This document shows, one piece after another, positions 4,793 through 34,078 of a stretch of 37,749 nucleotides of DNA. The notes beneath the pieces were generated by a model that saw only the letters and a program-made list of their open reading frames with translations, ran no database searches and was not told where the DNA came from. The first letter of the stretch is position 1, and every line of letters starts with the position of its first letter. Source of the DNA: an uncultured Verrucomicrobia subdivision 3 bacterium (GTDB lineage Bacteria > Verrucomicrobiota > Verrucomicrobiia > Limisphaerales > UBA11358); NCBI GenBank assembly GCA_903822015.1, contig CAIJNQ010000128.1, positions 1-37,749 of the forward strand. Direction: 5' to 3'. A program made the translations under genes and the position numbers.

Positions 4793-5368
4793 TCAGTTCA
4801 GCGACAAATCATCCGGCATCTGGGAGAGCAGCTTGTTTTTCCAGCCGCCTTTGGATTTCAAAATCTTGGGCCAGAGCTGGTCGGGCGAGGTTTCAAAAAC
4901 GAGCTCAAGCGAAGCCGGGAAAGTGAGCCATGATTTGCGCTGCATTTCCATTTCGAGCTGGCCGGGGGACCAGCCGGCGTAACCGGCAAACAACTTCACC
5001 TTCTTCGCCGCGGAAAACGATTCACCGACCTCGACCAGTTCATCGAGCGAGTGACCGAGGGTCAAATTGGGGAAGACATTCGCATCGGGAATGAAATTAT
5101 CCGCGTGCAAAAAACTCAGTGCGGTGGGCTGCACCGGTCCGCCCAGGAACAGCGGCGCCTGTTTAAGGGTATCGGGGAGATCGGCAACCACTAATTCGCC
5201 GACGTTGCTGCCGCTGGAGCGGTTCAGGACGAGGCCGAAGGCGCCCTCGGCATTGTGTTCGCAGATGAGCACCACGGTGCGATGAAAAAACGAACCGGTC
5301 AAATCGCCGCCGTCCAGCAGCAATTTACCTTTTAGAATTTTCCCCGGATCGCCCATAACCAAAGCCAA
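4793..5368 (-). CDS. YqgE/AlgH family protein
   Basis: GKLLLDGGDLTGSFFHRTVVLICEHNAEGAFGLVLNRSSG ... LFLGGPVQPTALSFLH ... KLFAGYAGWSPGQLEMEMQRKSWL. Confidence 0.93.
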   Translation of the reverse strand: MALVMGDPGKILKGKLLLDGGDLTGSFFHRTVVLICEHNAEGAFGLVLNRSSGSNVGELVVADLPDTLKQAPLFLGGPVQPTALSFLHADNFIPDANVFPNLTLGHSLDELVEVGESFSAAKKVKLFAGYAGWSPGQLEMEMQRKSWLTFPASLELVFETSPDQLWPKILKSKGGWKNKLLSQMPDDLSLN

Positions 5369-7389: not shown

Positions 7390-8007
7390 TTATTGCGCCA
7401 GGATGTGGCCGGCAACAGAACAGGCGGGCAGCTCGCCGACGGCGTTAAGCGAGTAGGAGCCGCCGGACGGACAAACGGGCAACACACCCTCCTTGAAATA
7501 TGCCGCCAGATCCTGGGCGGTGGGAACAGCGACCGCGGTCTTGTTTTTTTCGAGCGCCCATTGTTGTTTGGCGGCGTCGAGTTGGCGGAGGTTGTTGATG
7601 CAGGCGTTGCGGTCGGCCGCCTCGGCCTGCGCGGCCTGCGCGGCCTGCGCGGCCTGCTGGGCCTCGGTGAGCTGCTGCAACTGGGCCGACTGCTGCTGGG
7701 CGTAGGCGCTGGTAGCCTTCAACTGCTGGGTGAGTTTCTGGTTCGACGCCTGCAACTGGGTGACCTGGTTGCGGAGGCGGGGCAAATCCTGGTTTTCCGC
7801 GCGCAACCGGGAGATCTCGGAGCCCTGCAGGCCGGCGTTGGCACTCTGGAGGGCATCCAACTTGGATTGCAAATCTTCGGCGTGCTGCTTCTGGGCCTGC
7901 AGGGACACCTGCGCCGCCTCTTTCTGCCGGAGCGTAGAAAAAAGAAAAATCTCGCTGGCGAGAAATGCCCCGACCAGCAGCCAGACCATCCATTTGTTTA
8001 ACTTCAT
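7390..8007 (-). CDS. Membrane-anchored coiled-coil protein with pseudopilin-like C-terminal segment
   Basis: N-terminal TM (MKLNKWMVWLLVGAFLASEIFLFSTL), Gln/Ala-rich coiled coil, C-terminus CINNLRQLDAAKQQWALEKNK...VCPSGGSYSLNAVGELPACSVAGH. Confidence 0.8.
   Translation of the reverse strand: MKLNKWMVWLLVGAFLASEIFLFSTLRQKEAAQVSLQAQKQHAEDLQSKLDALQSANAGLQGSEISRLRAENQDLPRLRNQVTQLQASNQKLTQQLKATSAYAQQQSAQLQQLTEAQQAAQAAQAAQAEAADRNACINNLRQLDAAKQQWALEKNKTAVAVPTAQDLAAYFKEGVLPVCPSGGSYSLNAVGELPACSVAGHILAQ
7623..7658. repeat. 9-bp tandem repeat (CGGCCTGCG)x4 encoding the AAQ coiled-coil repeat
   Basis: Four adjacent copies, last 8/9. Confidence 0.9.
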
Positions 8008-15820: not shown

Positions 15821-18190
15821 ATGACTACCAGAACCGGACGTTTTTCCAACGCCATAACCAACACCTCCGCTGCCTTCGTAACGGCGGCGTTTACGATCAT
15901 TGCCTGCGGCTCATTTGCGGCGCTGATTTTTTCGGGGCCGCTGAACGCGTTCGTCTCCCAGGGCATCTGGATCGGCCTATTCACTGCGCTGGGCGTCGGC
16001 CTCATCGTCTCGCTCGCCAGTTCCTTCACCGGGGCGATTGCCATACCGCAGGACCGGGTGGCGCCGATCCTCGCGCTCATGGCAGTCAGCATCACCGGGC
16101 GCATGAAAGAGGCCTCACCCGAGGAAAAATGCCTCAGCGTGATGGCGGCCATCGCACTGGTCTCGCTCATCACCGGAGTATTTCTATTTCTGCTGGGACG
16201 ATTCCGGCTCGGCAACCTCATCCGCTACATTCCATATCCGGTCATCGGCGGCTTCCTGGCCGGTTCCGGCTGGCTGCTGGTGCGGGGCGCCCTGCACGTG
16301 ATGACCGGCCAGAATTTGAGTATTCGAACGCTCGGGGTCTTACTCCATCCGAAAATGCTCGTGGCCTGGGTTCCGGGCGTCGGGTTTGGCGGCCTGCTCT
16401 TTTTGCTGCTAAAAAGATTGCGCCATACATTCACCATTCCGCTGATGCTCATGGCCGGCATCGGTATCTTTTATCTGGTGCTGTGGCTGGCGGGCGTTTC
16501 CACCCTGGAGGCCAAAGCGCAGGGCTGGCTTCCCCATTTTCCAACGAACCAGAGTTTCGGCAACCTTTCGCCCGTTTCCATCATCCGGCAGATCCCCGCG
16601 CGAATGCTGGGGATGGACTGGGCCATTCTCGCCACGATCCTGCTGACCAGCGTCGTTTCCATCCTGCTCACGGCCAGCGCGCTGGAGCTTGCCGCCGAGG
16701 AAGAGATTGATCTCAACCGCGAACTGCGGGCCGCAGGGCTGGCCACGTTCCTCGTGGGGCTGGGCGGCGGCATGGTCGGCTTTCATTCATTGAGCATGTC
16801 ACGGCTGGTTTTGAGCATGGGCGCCCGCAGCCGCCGGGTGGGGGTGGGCTCGGCGCTGATCTGCGGCGGAGCGATGTTCTGGGGGGCTTCGGTGATATCG
16901 CTCGTGCCACAATTCGTCTGCGGCGGACTGCTGTTTTTTCTCGGGCTCACCTTTCTCTGGGAATGGATTTACGAGGGGCGCCGCACCTTGAACATCGTGG
17001 ATTACGCGGTCGTGCTGCTGATCGTCGCGGTGGTGAGCGTAATGGGTTACCCGGAGGGCGTGGGCGTGGGCATCATCGCGGCGGTAGTCATTTTCATCCA
17101 TAATTACAGCCGCGTGGAGGTGGTCACCCACGCGCACACCGGCACGGAATTTCGCAGCAACGTGGACCGTTCGGTGGGCGACCTGCGGTTCCTGCGGGAA
17201 CACGGCGCACAAATCTATGTGCTGCGACTGCAAGGATTCATTTTTTTCGGCACGGCCAATCACCTCCTGCATGAAGTCCGCCAGCGGGTGAAGCAAGCCA
17301 GCCTGCCTCCGCTGCGGTACGTCATACTGGATTTGCGGCGCGTGACCGGCCTGGATTCCTCCGCCCTATTCAGCCTCAACAAAATCCTGTTGCTGGGACG
17401 CAAAGAAGGCTTTCAACTCATCATGGCGCAACTCACCCCCCAATTGGACACCCAGCTCAAAAAGGGAGGCATGACCGAGCAAACCGGCGCGGGCCTGCAC
17501 CTGACGGCCGACCTGGACCGGGCCATGGAATGGTGCGAGGAACATCTCCTGGCCGATGCGCATCCCGCCACAAACGGCCATTCCGGCACCCTGGCCGAAC
17601 AGTTGATGCTTTCCTGGCCGGCGGCGATCGAACCGGCCCGCCTGATGCCCTATCTGGAACGGCGGGAAGTGCCCGCCGCCACGCATCTCATCCGCCAGTC
17701 TGAAAAATCCGAATCGCTCTACTTTATTGAATCGGGCCGGGTCACGGCGCAATTGGAAATGGAAAATGGCAGCACGTTGCGCCTGCGCACCATGGGTTCC
17801 GGCACCGTGGTGGGGGAAGTCGGCCTCTTTCTGGGCGGCACGCGCGCCGCCTCCGTCGTCACCGAACAGCCCTGTACCGTCCATTGCCTGACCGCGGCGG
17901 CCCTGGACAGGATGAACCGCGAACAACCCGACCTGGCCCTCGCTTTTCATCGCTACCTCATCTGCCAATTGGGCGAGCGCATGGCCAGCAACAGCAAACG
18001 GCTGCTCGACACCCTGGAATGTAACCCGCGAGCGGGCATATGGCCGGGCAGCCGCTTAAACCACCGAGGCGCTTCGCCGAAAAATTCCAATACCGCCCCC
18101 GGTCAACCTTCAGCGATCGTGAGATCCGGACGCCGAGGGCATCAAGGGAAGGATTGCCGGTGCCGGAGGCGGGGAGCCGACGGATTTTGA
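15821..18190 (+). CDS. SulP (SLC26)-like transporter with STAS and cyclic-nucleotide-binding domains
   Basis: SulP-type membrane domain, STAS (LRYVILDLRRVTGLDSSALFSLNKI), cNMP-like (SLYFIESGRVTAQL...GTVVGEVGLFLGGTRAASVVTEQPC). C-terminal tail after about 18018 looks non-native. Confidence 0.88.
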   Translation: MTTRTGRFSNAITNTSAAFVTAAFTIIACGSFAALIFSGPLNAFVSQGIWIGLFTALGVGLIVSLASSFTGAIAIPQDRVAPILALMAVSITGRMKEASPEEKCLSVMAAIALVSLITGVFLFLLGRFRLGNLIRYIPYPVIGGFLAGSGWLLVRGALHVMTGQNLSIRTLGVLLHPKMLVAWVPGVGFGGLLFLLLKRLRHTFTIPLMLMAGIGIFYLVLWLAGVSTLEAKAQGWLPHFPTNQSFGNLSPVSIIRQIPARMLGMDWAILATILLTSVVSILLTASALELAAEEEIDLNRELRAAGLATFLVGLGGGMVGFHSLSMSRLVLSMGARSRRVGVGSALICGGAMFWGASVISLVPQFVCGGLLFFLGLTFLWEWIYEGRRTLNIVDYAVVLLIVAVVSVMGYPEGVGVGIIAAVVIFIHNYSRVEVVTHAHTGTEFRSNVDRSVGDLRFLREHGAQIYVLRLQGFIFFGTANHLLHEVRQRVKQASLPPLRYVILDLRRVTGLDSSALFSLNKILLLGRKEGFQLIMAQLTPQLDTQLKKGGMTEQTGAGLHLTADLDRAMEWCEEHLLADAHPATNGHSGTLAEQLMLSWPAAIEPARLMPYLERREVPAATHLIRQSEKSESLYFIESGRVTAQLEMENGSTLRLRTMGSGTVVGEVGLFLGGTRAASVVTEQPCTVHCLTAAALDRMNREQPDLALAFHRYLICQLGERMASNSKRLLDTLECNPRAGIWPGSRLNHRGASPKNSNTAPGQPSAIVRSGRRGHQGKDCRCRRRGADGF

Positions 18191-28579: not shown

Positions 28580-29023
28580 TCACTGTTTCAGCCGGAAGAA
28601 GACCGTGCCGGCGGGCGGTGAGTTGGTGGCGCTGTTTTTGACGACGGAGCCGAGGTAGTTGCCCCAGGTGCCGGTGGAAAGATTGTTGTTGGTTTGAAGT
28701 GTCCAGCCGGTGGTCGAAGGATCTCACGACACAATGGCTTGGTTGCCAACGTGCGTAATGATGAGTATCGGCGAGCCAGGCGTCTGCACGACTTGGAGCA
28801 GCGACCAGAAGCCGCCGGTCAAGGAGTAATTGCCTCCGGTCATCACGCCGCTGGCATCGGGCTGGCCGATAGTGCCCGAGACCTGGTAGGTCCCGCCGAT
28901 GCTGGTGCCGCCGCCACCGGCGATCTTATACCAGTCTATCGAGTAGCTTTGGCCAAAAAGCGACGAGCCACAAAAGCAAACCGCCAAGACGCCAAGGCGC
29001 CAAGTTTTCAGAATTGTTTTCAT
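28580..29023 (-). pseudogene. Small exported protein gene interrupted by in-frame TGA at 28724-28726
   Basis: SYSIDWYKIAGGGGTSIGGTYQVSGTIGQPDASGVMTGGNYSLTGGFWSL...HVGNQAIVS*DPSTTGWTLQTNNNLSTGTWGNYLGSVVKNSATNSPPAGTVFFRLKQ*; frame maintained across the stop. Confidence 0.8.
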
Positions 29024-29046: not shown

Positions 29047-31965
29047 TTATTTTGCCGACGCGACTTTTTGGTCGATTAATTGTTCCAACCTCTCCAGCCG
29101 CGCTTTCAAATCAGCATTCTCGGCCTTGAGTGCTTCAATCTGACTTTCTGCCTGCTGGCTTCTACCTTCGACCTTTTCGTTGAGCCCCTGGATGGCCGCC
29201 AGGGCCACACCGCCTTCATCCACCACGGAGATATGCCTATCATCGTTGCCGTCCAAGCCGAATGACGAGTGAAAATCCTGGGCCACCGGCCCGATGTGCC
29301 GCGTCGCCGCCGCATCATTCCGATAGTTCCATTCGGTCACCGGCAGCGCCAGCACTTTGTCCAGAACCGTCCTGGTATTCAGCGGCGTGAAATTCTCCTT
29401 GGCATTCCGATCGCTCGTCAGCTTGGTGCCGCGGGCGTAAACATCCCCCGCGCAATACATCGTGCCATCGTTCGTGATCACCAACACGAAGGAAAGGTTG
29501 TTCCCGAATTCAGCCAAAATACTGTTGGCCGTCCCGGCGGGAATGTTCGCGGATACGCTAAGCGCGCCATCCAGCGCCGCGCCGCCATCCACGGTCACCC
29601 GCAGCGCCGGGCTGGCGGTCAACGCCGTGGATTTGTTATCAAAAAAGGCCACGGGATTCGGCCAGCCACCCGTCCGCGTGCCATAGACATTCAGCGAATC
29701 CACCGCGCCCGAGTTAGTGACGGTCGTCGTACTGGTGAAAGTGTTGCCACCGGTGAAACTCTGGTTGGCACCCAACAAAGCCGCGTTCGCCGGCAGGCTG
29801 GTCAGGTTCGCGCCGCTGATGGCGGGCAAGGCGCCAGTAAGATTTCCGGCGTTCAGACTGGTCAGGCCGCCGCCATTGCCGTTGACGACGCCGGCAAAGT
29901 AGGTCTGGGTCTGAATTCCCGGCGTGCCGATGCGGATGGCGTTGTTTTCGCCGGGCACACCCACATTACCGAGGACGATGTTGTTGCTTTCGCTGGCGGT
30001 GTAGGAGGAGCCGGCACCATAGCCGAGGGCGATATTATTATTGCCGCTCGTAATGGCGGTCAGCGCCACATTGCCGACGGCCGTGTTATTGGAACCGGAG
30101 ACATTCCCGGCCAGCGCGCCATTGCCGGTGGCGGTGTTGTAGGAACCGCTGGTGTTACCGAAAAGCGCCCCGCTGCCGCCGGCCGTGTTGAACACCCCGG
30201 TGGTATTTGAGTTAAGCGCGTAGTTGCCATCAGCCGTGTTACGGGTCCCGGTCGTGTTGGCGGTCAGGCTGCTGTAACCGACGGCTGTGTTATCAGAACC
30301 GGTCATGCTTGGGTTGCCTGAGGGGCCGAAAGCAAAATTGCGATGGCTGTCGCCGGTCAGTTGCGAAGCGCTGAGATTGGTCAGCCCGGTGGCATTGCCG
30401 GTGAGCGTTCCGTTGATGGTCACCCCCGTGGTGTTCCAGGTCAGCGCGCCATGATCGCCGCCATTTTTGGTTCCGAGCAGGCCGCCGCTGAAGCCCCAAA
30501 GCGCCGGGCCGTCCACCTGATAGTTGCCAGTGCCGAAATTGGTGACCGTGTTGCCGTTATAAGCCAGACCATGATTGGGATCCGAACCCTGTTCGCCGCG
30601 CAGATAAAGGACGTGGGAAAAGAGATACACGTTGGTGTTGATGGAAAAATAGTTGTCGGGTGTCACCGCGGTGTTGATGCCCATACCGCCCTGCGCGCGG
30701 ATGAGGAATTGATTGTTGGCTGTGGAGCTGAAAACTGCGCCTACGGAATCATCCGCCCAGACGAAAGCGCCTTGGTGCAACGCCTGGGCGCGGGTGCCGC
30801 CGGCGAAAGAAACGGGGCCGCCGGCGATATTCTGGTAACCGCCGGGGACCGTGGCGTAATTGGCGCTGGCGGTATTATTATAGCCGCCGCCGACGGTGGC
30901 TTGATACTGGCCGTTCGCCACGTTTTGCTGCCCACCGGCGATGGTGCCGGACCGACTGGAGTTTGTGTTATTTTGACCTCCCGTGATCACCGAATACAAG
31001 CCATTCGCCAAATTCTCATAACCACCTCCGACCATTGCAAAATCTCCCAGCGTCTGATTCCCCTGACCACCGCCGATGGTGCTGGCACCACCAGTGGCGG
31101 AGTTTAACGCCCCTCCACCTATGGTAGTGTCGGCAATACCACCGTAGATGATGTTTTCAACCCCGCCACCGATCACACAATAAGTGGAAGGGTAGATAAC
31201 ATTACCATAACCTCCGCCGATAAAAGAATAGTCGGCGGCATTCGTGTTATAGGTTCCGCCGGAGATCACACCATTCTGGCCGGATACGTTATTATAGGCG
31301 CCGCCCCCGATGAACCCACCGGAAGTTGAAAAAACGAGATTGGATTCCCCGCCGACGATCGCATCGTAATTGATCCCCACAAGGAGGTTCCCCTGCCCAC
31401 CCGCGATGACACCGAAATATCCTCCGTATTGGGCATTGCCAGAACCACCCAGCAGGCTGTTGTAACCATAGGTGCTGGAGAAGCCGGGAAGCACCGATTG
31501 CGACAATATTCCGCCGCTGATCTGCGAGGCGGACAAACCTCCCAGCACATTGCTTGCGCTGTTGGCAAAGATGGCGTAGGGCGTCGGAGTCAGAGATTGA
31601 AATGGAGACAATGGTATATAGGCAAGAGTGTTGGCGGGATTGTTTGTGCGCACATCCACTTCGAGCCAGTAGTTCGAGCCGGTGAACAGACCCGCGCCAA
31701 AATCGATTGTCGTGATAAACAAACCACCGGTCACGGCGATGCCATTGGTCAGGTCGTTGGCACCAAACTGAGTGTTACCCAGCGGGTCGACAAACAGTTT
31801 AAAACGGAAATCATAAAGGCCGCTGGCCGGGCCACTGCCGCTGTTCAAGCGGCCTTGGTAAGTTAACGCCGTGCCCTGGGCATGGGCAGTTGCAAGTTGC
31901 AAGTTAAAGGTTGCAAGTACAAGCAAGGTTAGTGCGATGCAGATTAAAAGTATTTGCGATTTCAT
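29047..31965 (-). CDS. Large exported surface protein with YadA-head-like repeats and C-terminal peptidase S74 intramolecular-chaperone domain
   Basis: Repeats GGGYENLANGLYSVITGGQNNT and NTAVGNVALTAITSGNNNIALGYGAG; C-terminus SDRNAKENFTPLNTRTVLDKVLALPVTEWNYRND...HIGPVAQDFHSSFGLDGNDDRHISVVDEGGVALAAIQGLNEKV. Confidence 0.88.
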   Translation of the reverse strand: MKSQILLICIALTLLVLATFNLQLATAHAQGTALTYQGRLNSGSGPASGLYDFRFKLFVDPLGNTQFGANDLTNGIAVTGGLFITTIDFGAGLFTGSNYWLEVDVRTNNPANTLAYIPLSPFQSLTPTPYAIFANSASNVLGGLSASQISGGILSQSVLPGFSSTYGYNSLLGGSGNAQYGGYFGVIAGGQGNLLVGINYDAIVGGESNLVFSTSGGFIGGGAYNNVSGQNGVISGGTYNTNAADYSFIGGGYGNVIYPSTYCVIGGGVENIIYGGIADTTIGGGALNSATGGASTIGGGQGNQTLGDFAMVGGGYENLANGLYSVITGGQNNTNSSRSGTIAGGQQNVANGQYQATVGGGYNNTASANYATVPGGYQNIAGGPVSFAGGTRAQALHQGAFVWADDSVGAVFSSTANNQFLIRAQGGMGINTAVTPDNYFSINTNVYLFSHVLYLRGEQGSDPNHGLAYNGNTVTNFGTGNYQVDGPALWGFSGGLLGTKNGGDHGALTWNTTGVTINGTLTGNATGLTNLSASQLTGDSHRNFAFGPSGNPSMTGSDNTAVGYSSLTANTTGTRNTADGNYALNSNTTGVFNTAGGSGALFGNTSGSYNTATGNGALAGNVSGSNNTAVGNVALTAITSGNNNIALGYGAGSSYTASESNNIVLGNVGVPGENNAIRIGTPGIQTQTYFAGVVNGNGGGLTSLNAGNLTGALPAISGANLTSLPANAALLGANQSFTGGNTFTSTTTVTNSGAVDSLNVYGTRTGGWPNPVAFFDNKSTALTASPALRVTVDGGAALDGALSVSANIPAGTANSILAEFGNNLSFVLVITNDGTMYCAGDVYARGTKLTSDRNAKENFTPLNTRTVLDKVLALPVTEWNYRNDAAATRHIGPVAQDFHSSFGLDGNDDRHISVVDEGGVALAAIQGLNEKVEGRSQQAESQIEALKAENADLKARLERLEQLIDQKVASAK
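31889..31923 (-). repeat. Heptanucleotide array within signal-peptide codons of the S74 protein gene
   Basis: + strand: gttgcaa gttgcaa gttaaag gttgcaa gtacaag; encodes LVLATFNLQLAT. Confidence 0.85.
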
Positions 31966-32008
31966 GGCGTGGTGAGTTGAGGTTTAATTTCTATGTTGGA
32001 AAGGGAAA

Positions 32009-32890
32009 TCAAGGTGTCAGCGGGCGCACGGCCTGGACGCGGTAGAAACGAACCGGCAGGTTGGTGTCAATGAAACCCGCCGTGGTCGAGGAACCGGCGA
32101 AGGGTGAAACCAGTCCCAGACCACTGTCCGTCCAGAGGTTGGCGCCCAAGTTTGAGGTTTTTTGCAGATAGTAAAACCGCGTGGTCACACTGTTCCAGGT
32201 CAGGCTTGCCGTGGTGCCGCCGGGCCCGAAGCTCCCGCTGGTGATCCGGAGGATGCTGTTGATATTGTTGGGATCCGTGCCGGCCAGATAGTCTTGGCCG
32301 ACGGTCATGCCCTTGCCGGTGGGGTCGGCGCCGGCGCTGATGTTCGTGGTGCCGAAGTTTTGCAGCAGCCAGGCGATCGGCAGGCCATTGGGTGCCAGCG
32401 CGCCTTGCCGGATGCTATCGGTCTGGACGAACGCCACGGTGTTGCTCAGGGAAATCCAGCCGCAATTCGCGCTCCACACGCTGCCGTAAAGCTTGCCAGT
32501 GGCCAGATCCACCCGGGGTGCCCCGTTGGGCTCGAAGTTGATCCAGCCGATGTTTGCGCCCCAGGCGTAGCCGCGGAGGTTGCCGAACCCGTCCTGGTTC
32601 ACGCCGAAGTCCGCGGCGGAATTGTTCTGATACTGGATCTGGTTGACGGGCGCACCGCTGCCGAGGTTGATCCACCCGACGTTGGCGGAATACAGATAGC
32701 CGGAGCAGACATACTCGCCAATAACGGCGCCATTGGCGGTATCACCGGTCCCATTGATCCACCCCACGTTGGCGCCATAGGCGTATTTATTGACGGGGTC
32801 AATGGTCGTGGCGGCGTGAAGCAAGGCTGAAGGTTGAAGGCCGAAGGCTGAAAGCAGCGCGACTAGGAGGAGTTTGGTTTTCATAAACAC
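32009..32890 (-). CDS. Exported repeat protein with GWI/GWIN motifs
   Basis: YAYGANVGWINGTGD, YLYSANVGWINLGSG, YAWGANIGWINFEPNG, YGSVWSANCGWISLSN. Confidence 0.8.
   Translation of the reverse strand: MFMKTKLLLVALLSAFGLQPSALLHAATTIDPVNKYAYGANVGWINGTGDTANGAVIGEYVCSGYLYSANVGWINLGSGAPVNQIQYQNNSAADFGVNQDGFGNLRGYAWGANIGWINFEPNGAPRVDLATGKLYGSVWSANCGWISLSNTVAFVQTDSIRQGALAPNGLPIAWLLQNFGTTNISAGADPTGKGMTVGQDYLAGTDPNNINSILRITSGSFGPGGTTASLTWNSVTTRFYYLQKTSNLGANLWTDSGLGLVSPFAGSSTTAGFIDTNLPVRFYRVQAVRPLTP
32823..32857 (-). repeat. Heptanucleotide array within signal-peptide codons of the GWIN-repeat gene
   Basis: + strand: aaggctg aaggttg aaggccg aaggctg aaagcag; encodes LLSAFGLQPSAL. Confidence 0.9.
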
Positions 32891-32902
32891 CTTGGAATTT
32901 AC

Positions 32903-34078
32903 TCAGTGTGAAATGTTCGCCCACGGGCTGGTGGCCGTGGCGGCGGAACCGATTGGGCCGAAGTCATTCGCAGTGCCGTAGTTTACATAATTGGCGAGGC
33001 CGCCACCAATAACCACGTTTTTAAGGATCACATTATTGGTATTGGCGGCGTTGACAATTTCAATTCCCAGAACTCCGTTCGCGGTCACCACATGATTTTC
33101 TTCGATCAGATTATTACTATCCTGGATGATAAGGGCCCCAACTGTATTCAAACTAAAGTGGTTTCGGGAAATAATCGAGTTACCGGAAGCATTACCACTA
33201 TTGTAACCATATAATGAGTTGTTCAATACTTCGCAATCCTCCACCACATTGGCGCTGTTTCCGGCGGCACAATTAATGCCAGTACCGCTATTCGAGACGA
33301 TGCGACATTTGCGGATTTCGTCCCCTAAACCCAAGCATTCGAAGCCATCACCATTGTTATTCTGGCAGCTGCAATCCAGCGCCCGGCTGGCGATGAGGTT
33401 GAACCCGCCGGTGCTGTTATATTCCGACTGGCACTGCCTCACCGTGCCATTCGCAACCGAGAATCCATAGCCGCCATTATTCCGGGCGATGCAACCCGCT
33501 ATGTCACCGCCACCCGAACTGCCGCCTGAATATATCCCGTCGCCGGCGTTGCCGATGAACAGGCAATCCCGCACGATGCTGCCCGCCTCCGTGTACAGAC
33601 CACGTGCGCCATTCCCGGAAATGGTGAGATGCTCGAAAACCAAATTGCGCGGAAAGCCGCTCAACCAGGCATCCACACCAATCGCGCCCCAACCCGTCAC
33701 GGTGCCATTGCGAACGATCACATTGGTAAAAGTGCCACCCACAAAAACACCATCCACGGAGCCGGGAACCCCCTGCAGGGTGAAGCCATTTAGATCCAGC
33801 GTCACATTGCCACTCACGATGGTTATTCCCGATGACCCGCTGATGCCGTTAAGATTGGCCGTCAGATAATACGACCCCGGTGCGTTGATTATTAATGGCA
33901 ACGTAGAAATCGGCGTGCGCGGCTCGATCTGCGCCAGCGTCTTCATCGTCGGCGCGGGAGATCCCGGCGGCGTGAGGCTGCCTTGGGCCAGCACGGCTGA
34001 AGGCTGAAAGCTGAAGGTTAAAAGGAGCGACAGTCCGACGCATTGAGCGGTGAGCTGAATTTGGGTTTTTAGTTTCAT
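32903..34078 (-). CDS. Exported right-handed parallel beta-helix (NosD-like) repeat protein
   Basis: GSYYLTANLNGISGSSGITIVSGNVTLDLNGFTLQGVPGSVDGVFVGGTFTNVIVRNGTVTGWGAIGVD; repeated short beta-rungs. Confidence 0.88.
   Translation of the reverse strand: MKLKTQIQLTAQCVGLSLLLTFSFQPSAVLAQGSLTPPGSPAPTMKTLAQIEPRTPISTLPLIINAPGSYYLTANLNGISGSSGITIVSGNVTLDLNGFTLQGVPGSVDGVFVGGTFTNVIVRNGTVTGWGAIGVDAWLSGFPRNLVFEHLTISGNGARGLYTEAGSIVRDCLFIGNAGDGIYSGGSSGGGDIAGCIARNNGGYGFSVANGTVRQCQSEYNSTGGFNLIASRALDCSCQNNNGDGFECLGLGDEIRKCRIVSNSGTGINCAAGNSANVVEDCEVLNNSLYGYNSGNASGNSIISRNHFSLNTVGALIIQDSNNLIEENHVVTANGVLGIEIVNAANTNNVILKNVVIGGGLANYVNYGTANDFGPIGSAATATSPWANISH
33993..34027 (-). repeat. Heptanucleotide array within signal-peptide codons of the beta-helix gene
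   Basis: + strand: acggctg aaggctg aaagctg aaggtta aaaggag; encodes LLLTFSFQPSAV. Confidence 0.9.

Follow-up and report, generated by a model that had tools for sequence, protein, structure and literature searches.

Heptanucleotide tandem arrays lie in the leader-coding starts of three consecutive minus-strand genes of an uncultured Verrucomicrobia subdivision 3 bacterium. The most probable reading of these arrays, although it leaves considerable room for doubt, is that heptanucleotide repeats endemic to the genome and its relatives occupy a tolerant slot in cleaved leaders and rewrite it concertedly, under selection that keeps the reading frame; repeat DNA appears to rewrite the export tags, which do not seem to serve as on/off switches. 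Signal peptides (SPs) evolve rapidly, and one can rarely trace where they came from; here the DNA still reveals the source of a segment, namely a repeat class found throughout the genome.

Arrays in the leaders of three consecutive genes

The window, i.e., the whole stretch of 37,749 nucleotides that was analysed, contains three confirmed period-7 arrays in leaders (Table 1). Tandem Repeats Finder assigned period 7 to 33995–34017/34024, 32823–32852 and 31888–31918, and a lag-7 scan of the window returned 33995–34015, 32823–32852 and 31888–31905, with degenerate units that can be followed to 31923 by reading the sequence. The original prediction had counted about five tandem 7-bp units per leader; the arrays do exist, but they are imperfect and comprise about three to four units, not five clean ones. 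The residues that they encode are LLTFSFQPSAV in the gene ending at 32903, SAFGLQPSAL in the gene ending at 32009 and LATFNLQLAT in the gene ending at 29047, and the claim that different genes use different units proved right, e.g., the TTCAGCC type versus the TTGCAAC type. The P1 protein further contains repeats rich in glycine, and its end is of the Peptidase_S74 (endosialidase chaperone) type.

Table 1. Array-bearing genes of the window and the arrays in their leaders
Feature	Position	Strand	Remarks
Exported right-handed beta-helix protein, 'P3' family	32903..34078	-	Pfam PF13229; 391 aa
Heptamer array	33995..34024	-	Coding-strand TTCAGCT/TTCAGCC type, encoding (T)FSFQPSA of the leader; recoding test
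Exported protein of no known family ('AATTIDPVNKYAYGANVGW'), 'P2'	32009..32884	-	291 aa from ATG
Heptamer array	32823..32852	-	Coding-strand TTCAGCC/TTCGGCC/TTCAACC, encoding SAFGLQPSA of the leader; recoding test
Exported protein, 'P1' family	29047..31965	-	972 aa; N-terminal region TYQGRL
Heptamer array	31888..31923	-	Coding-strand TTGCAAC type, encoding LATFNLQLAT of the leader; recoding test
Small exported protein	28724..29023	-	99 aa; 8-bp array in leader
8-bp array	28982..29004	-	Leader of gene 28724-29023; similar case, other period

Among the heptamer arrays of the window, the best is (GTTTCAG)5.6 at 373–411, which is located directly upstream of a glucose-6-phosphate dehydrogenase gene and not within any secreted gene. 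A perfect 9-bp repeat, CGGCCTGCG, is present in 3.9 copies at 7623–7657, in a predicted gene (7390–8007) without a Pfam match.

SPs were predicted by simple rules; a basic N-terminus, a hydrophobic stretch and a small residue at the cleavage site were seen in the leaders by eye and by hydropathy, and we infer that the array-bearing peptides function as SPs. The arrays had been proposed to encode the hydrophobic core itself, which is not the case: in the two window genes measured, the Kyte–Doolittle mean was 2.2–2.3 over the nine residues before the array versus 0.1–0.3 inside it, and, since the hydrophobic stretch precedes the array, what the array encodes is the last part of the h-region together with the c-region. 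SPs that have an array are as long as those that lack one (median 26); the possibility that array insertion lengthens the leader was ruled out by this equality, and the arrays therefore replace leader sequence instead of adding to it. The frame logic of the original prediction was correct, as a stop-free heptamer array yields rotated versions of one 7-residue peptide in the three frames; each frame of a TCAGCCT array, for instance, is a rotation of SAFSLQP. The leader slot may tolerate arrays because cleavage removes this segment once the protein has been exported and only weak hydrophobicity would be needed there, and also because stop-free units such as TCAGCCT read SAFSLQP in any frame.

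Synonymous recoding of the leaders

Leaders are low-complexity sequences, and this general property could let period 7 arise by chance from the codons chosen for a conserved peptide. When the three window leaders were recoded with synonymous codons, however, only 0.08%, 0.26% and 0.18% of trials came up to the lag-7 score of the real sequence; with a rate of 0.3% at most, coincidental codon choice does not account for the window arrays. The 8-bp array of the small exported protein was reproduced in 0.14% of trials. Over the whole P1 and P2/P3 leader sets, 29 arrays were seen versus 1 predicted by recoding, and the peptide itself varies along with the repeat unit, which makes chance codon choice barely credible. 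The members below the array threshold have a lag-7 identity of 0.359 versus 0.295 in recoded leaders (maximum 0.314); members without a clear array thus retain a decayed period-7 signal.

Distribution of heptamer arrays in the genome and its relatives

In this genome (assembly of 2.85 Mb in 310 contigs, 73% complete) and in its relatives, period 7 prevails among tandem repeats. A set of 405 kb of the genome, in which sampled stretches were combined with the window and with two contigs chosen for their hits, contained 38 segments at lag 7 and 0–7 at each of lags 5, 6 and 8–13; apart from the harmonic 14, no other lag exceeded 7 segments, and the shuffled set contained none. The placement survey covered 1.1 Mb sampled from four genomes and found 55 arrays with 39 unit types. 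Intergenic arrays made up 24 of the 55, although only 11% of bases are intergenic (p = 2e-9), and 11 of the 31 genic arrays lay in the first 105 nt of genes versus 11% of coding bases; both excesses are significant when the four genomes are pooled. The number of arrays per 100 kb was 13–27 in intergenic regions, 3–18 in the first 105 nt and 0.6–3.5 in gene bodies. Of the 49 genomes in the taxonomic family, 24 had arrays of the TTCAGC type, and the reversed control pattern was almost nil.

A genome-wide enrichment of heptamers at SP positions, expected in the original prediction, was not found in the sampled stretches, where a lag-7 score of at least 8, the threshold for calling an array in an SP, was reached in 2 of 240 random SP genes. 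The association is instead with particular families: in sets that were gathered because the window genes have arrays, and which count the window genes among their members, lag-7 arrays are present in 21 of 54 leaders of beta-helix and 'GANVGW' (P2/P3) proteins (Fisher p = 1.6e-15; 0–2 of 54 at control lags, harmonic 14 excepted) and in 8 of 69 leaders of TYQGRL/S74 (P1) proteins (p = 1.3e-4), the latter family having been searched afterwards as a check. The proposal of repeat-born SPs is thereby narrowed: many related genomes do have array-encoded SP segments, with varied units, in three families of exported proteins, but neither a general link to SPs nor the identity of the array with the hydrophobic core was upheld.

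The lack of enrichment in SPs at large, together with the existence of mid-gene arrays that encode the same periodic peptide, would be expected if selfish repeats were inserted neutrally at tolerant sites and the peptide were selected for tolerance only. Such an explanation is improbable, as the unchanged SP length points to replacement, not addition, and the array register is near-constant and the family bias strong.

When 84,980 species were scanned for three TTCAGCN units with Ala-Gln-Gly after them, 11 matches were obtained, of which four (L237, L238, L239 and L243) are in real leaders, in records that carry the label Verrucomicrobia or match genomes of this genus; the other seven were rejected as not being leaders. 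The class-wide search with the AQG-x-LTPP start pattern found few members, and the order-wide search with the array pattern produced a single match, a TYQGRL gene of another family. Heptamer arrays at 4883–4913 of locus L058 and in the gene 16529–17528 of locus L233 encode the residues that precede a type IV pilin-like FTLIE/FTMVE motif; such leaders are a further kind of cleaved leader.

Unit diversity and probable turnover of the leader arrays

Leader units found in the relatives include TCAGCCT (SAFSLQPSA), TCAACCC (STLNPQLST), TCTGCCT (SAFCLLPSA), TCATCCT, GCAACTT and GGCAACC. In one pair of genes, from genomes G032 and G040, the mature parts are 80% identical and the SPs just 36% identical, with TCAGCCT units in one leader and GGCAACC units in the other. 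In the beta-helix family, the tree requires the array state to change 10 times, and well-supported branches force at least 6 of these changes. The unit type is associated with the resident repeat spectrum of the genome (exact p = 0.03 for nine genomes, with relatedness ignored and one mixed genome left out); CTCAAC-poor genomes have TCAGC leaders and CTCAAC-rich genomes have mostly TCAAC leaders, with two partial exceptions. Counted from the mature part, most members have the array in one and the same register modulo 7. This constancy fits homogenisation in place and selection acting on the cleavage region equally, and it could also mean that there was one ancestral array followed by in-place drift instead of repeated acquisition.

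A single origin would be taken further if one ancestral array-bearing leader had spread among the three families as a shared SP module, through recombination at 5' ends, and its units had drifted later. The three families, with unlike mature parts, do have a common register and context, e.g., STLNPQLSTVFAQG, and their genes are close together in several genomes. The leader segments preceding the array, however, differ from family to family, ordinary array-less leaders are common in these families, and the transition between TCAGCCT and GGCAACC in close relatives demands a joint change of all units; a shared module is accordingly rather unlikely, if less so than neutral insertion.

The favoured reading is that of endemic repeats rewriting a tolerant slot. 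The genome and its relatives contain many short dispersed heptanucleotide arrays, chiefly intergenic and at the 5' ends of genes, and in the three exported-protein families such arrays fill a fixed slot that starts with the last part of the h-region and stops just short of the predicted signal peptidase cleavage site. The arrays in the slot would decay by point mutation and then be rehomogenised or replaced, probably through slippage or conversion from other arrays, with selection holding the frame and a length of about four units; we infer this turnover, and it would be the reason why species differ in unit type and why the type shifts towards the resident repeat. A stronger version of this proposal, in which active spreading of repeats rewrites the fixed leader slot to match the resident heptamer, so that new SP sequence comes mainly from repeat DNA and less from point mutation, and in which the frame is switched now and then as a side effect, is tentative and clearly less probable than the general form, though ahead of the shared module. 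The families form a natural series in which perfect arrays grade into decayed ones and these into ordinary leaders, with swaps of units in close relatives, and repeat-driven evolution of export signals is therefore directly testable in them.

Copy number and reading frame

Slipped-strand gain or loss of heptamers could toggle the surface-protein cassette, a possibility raised in the original prediction, and these genes would then be contingency loci comparable to Neisseria opa. Seven is indeed not divisible by three, and one beta-helix paralogue of genome G040 (locus L131, about 1450–1530) is out of frame at its array: its ATG-led leader and its mature part are in different frames across the TTTCCGC array, for which reason the mature frame, which stays open over about 323 aa, lacks an in-frame start codon. 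This lone copy, however, may be a pseudogene, and every other array-bearing member examined is in frame. In the P2 family (the gene ending at 32009), all seven arrays begin 11 residues before the mature part and are of equal length, the copy number being the same in 7/7 orthologues in a comparison made between species, with one genome per species. Three perfect units are present in just 8 of 29 arrays, and SP arrays are not longer than arrays elsewhere. Phase variation is thus not supported, because about four units are fixed across orthologues and most arrays are imperfect; frame switching in these leaders is unlikely, and the contingency-locus model as a whole falls somewhat behind the shared module in probability. 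Heptamer-bearing leaders should not be called phase-variable without copy-number data.

Comparison with known repeat systems

The CTCTT pentamer repeat in the leader-coding region of Neisseria opa, the copy number of which varies and switches the frame at about 1 in 1000 per generation (PMC3960869), is the nearest precedent. The likeness is one of position, not of behaviour: both systems have, in the leader-coding region of surface-protein genes (putative ones in the present case), short tandem repeats whose unit length is no multiple of three, but, unlike in opa, the copy number here is fixed in the orthologues compared, the arrays are often imperfect and there are several unit types. According to the description of Mrazek 2007 given in PMC4679880, heptamers are the commonest class of long-unit repeats in many genomes, and dispersed heptanucleotide repeats include TAACTGA of Beggiatoaceae (PMC4679880) and GGGAATC of Xanthomonas and Nostoc (PMC4692102). 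The present repeats have the marks of this dispersed class, with period 7 prevailing over other periods and over shuffled sequences and with an intergenic preference, and they resemble other bacterial heptanucleotide repeats in forming many short arrays of about four units, mostly intergenic and often near genes. They differ in having many unit types per genome and in that one set of genes uses them as leaders. The repeat class is already known from other bacteria; no report of heptamer-built leaders in Verrucomicrobia was found in the literature searched, which is a part of the whole literature only.

Palindromic elements inside protein genes of Rickettsia are another instance of repetitive DNA read in frame as extra peptide; these elements are longer and palindromic and add residues, whereas the heptamer arrays described here lie in a fixed leader slot. 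Mid-gene heptamer arrays were also observed in large genes, often several per gene (loci L054, L048, L066, L081 and L082), where they encode inserted periodic peptides, e.g., NLQPSTF and LVTRHSS.
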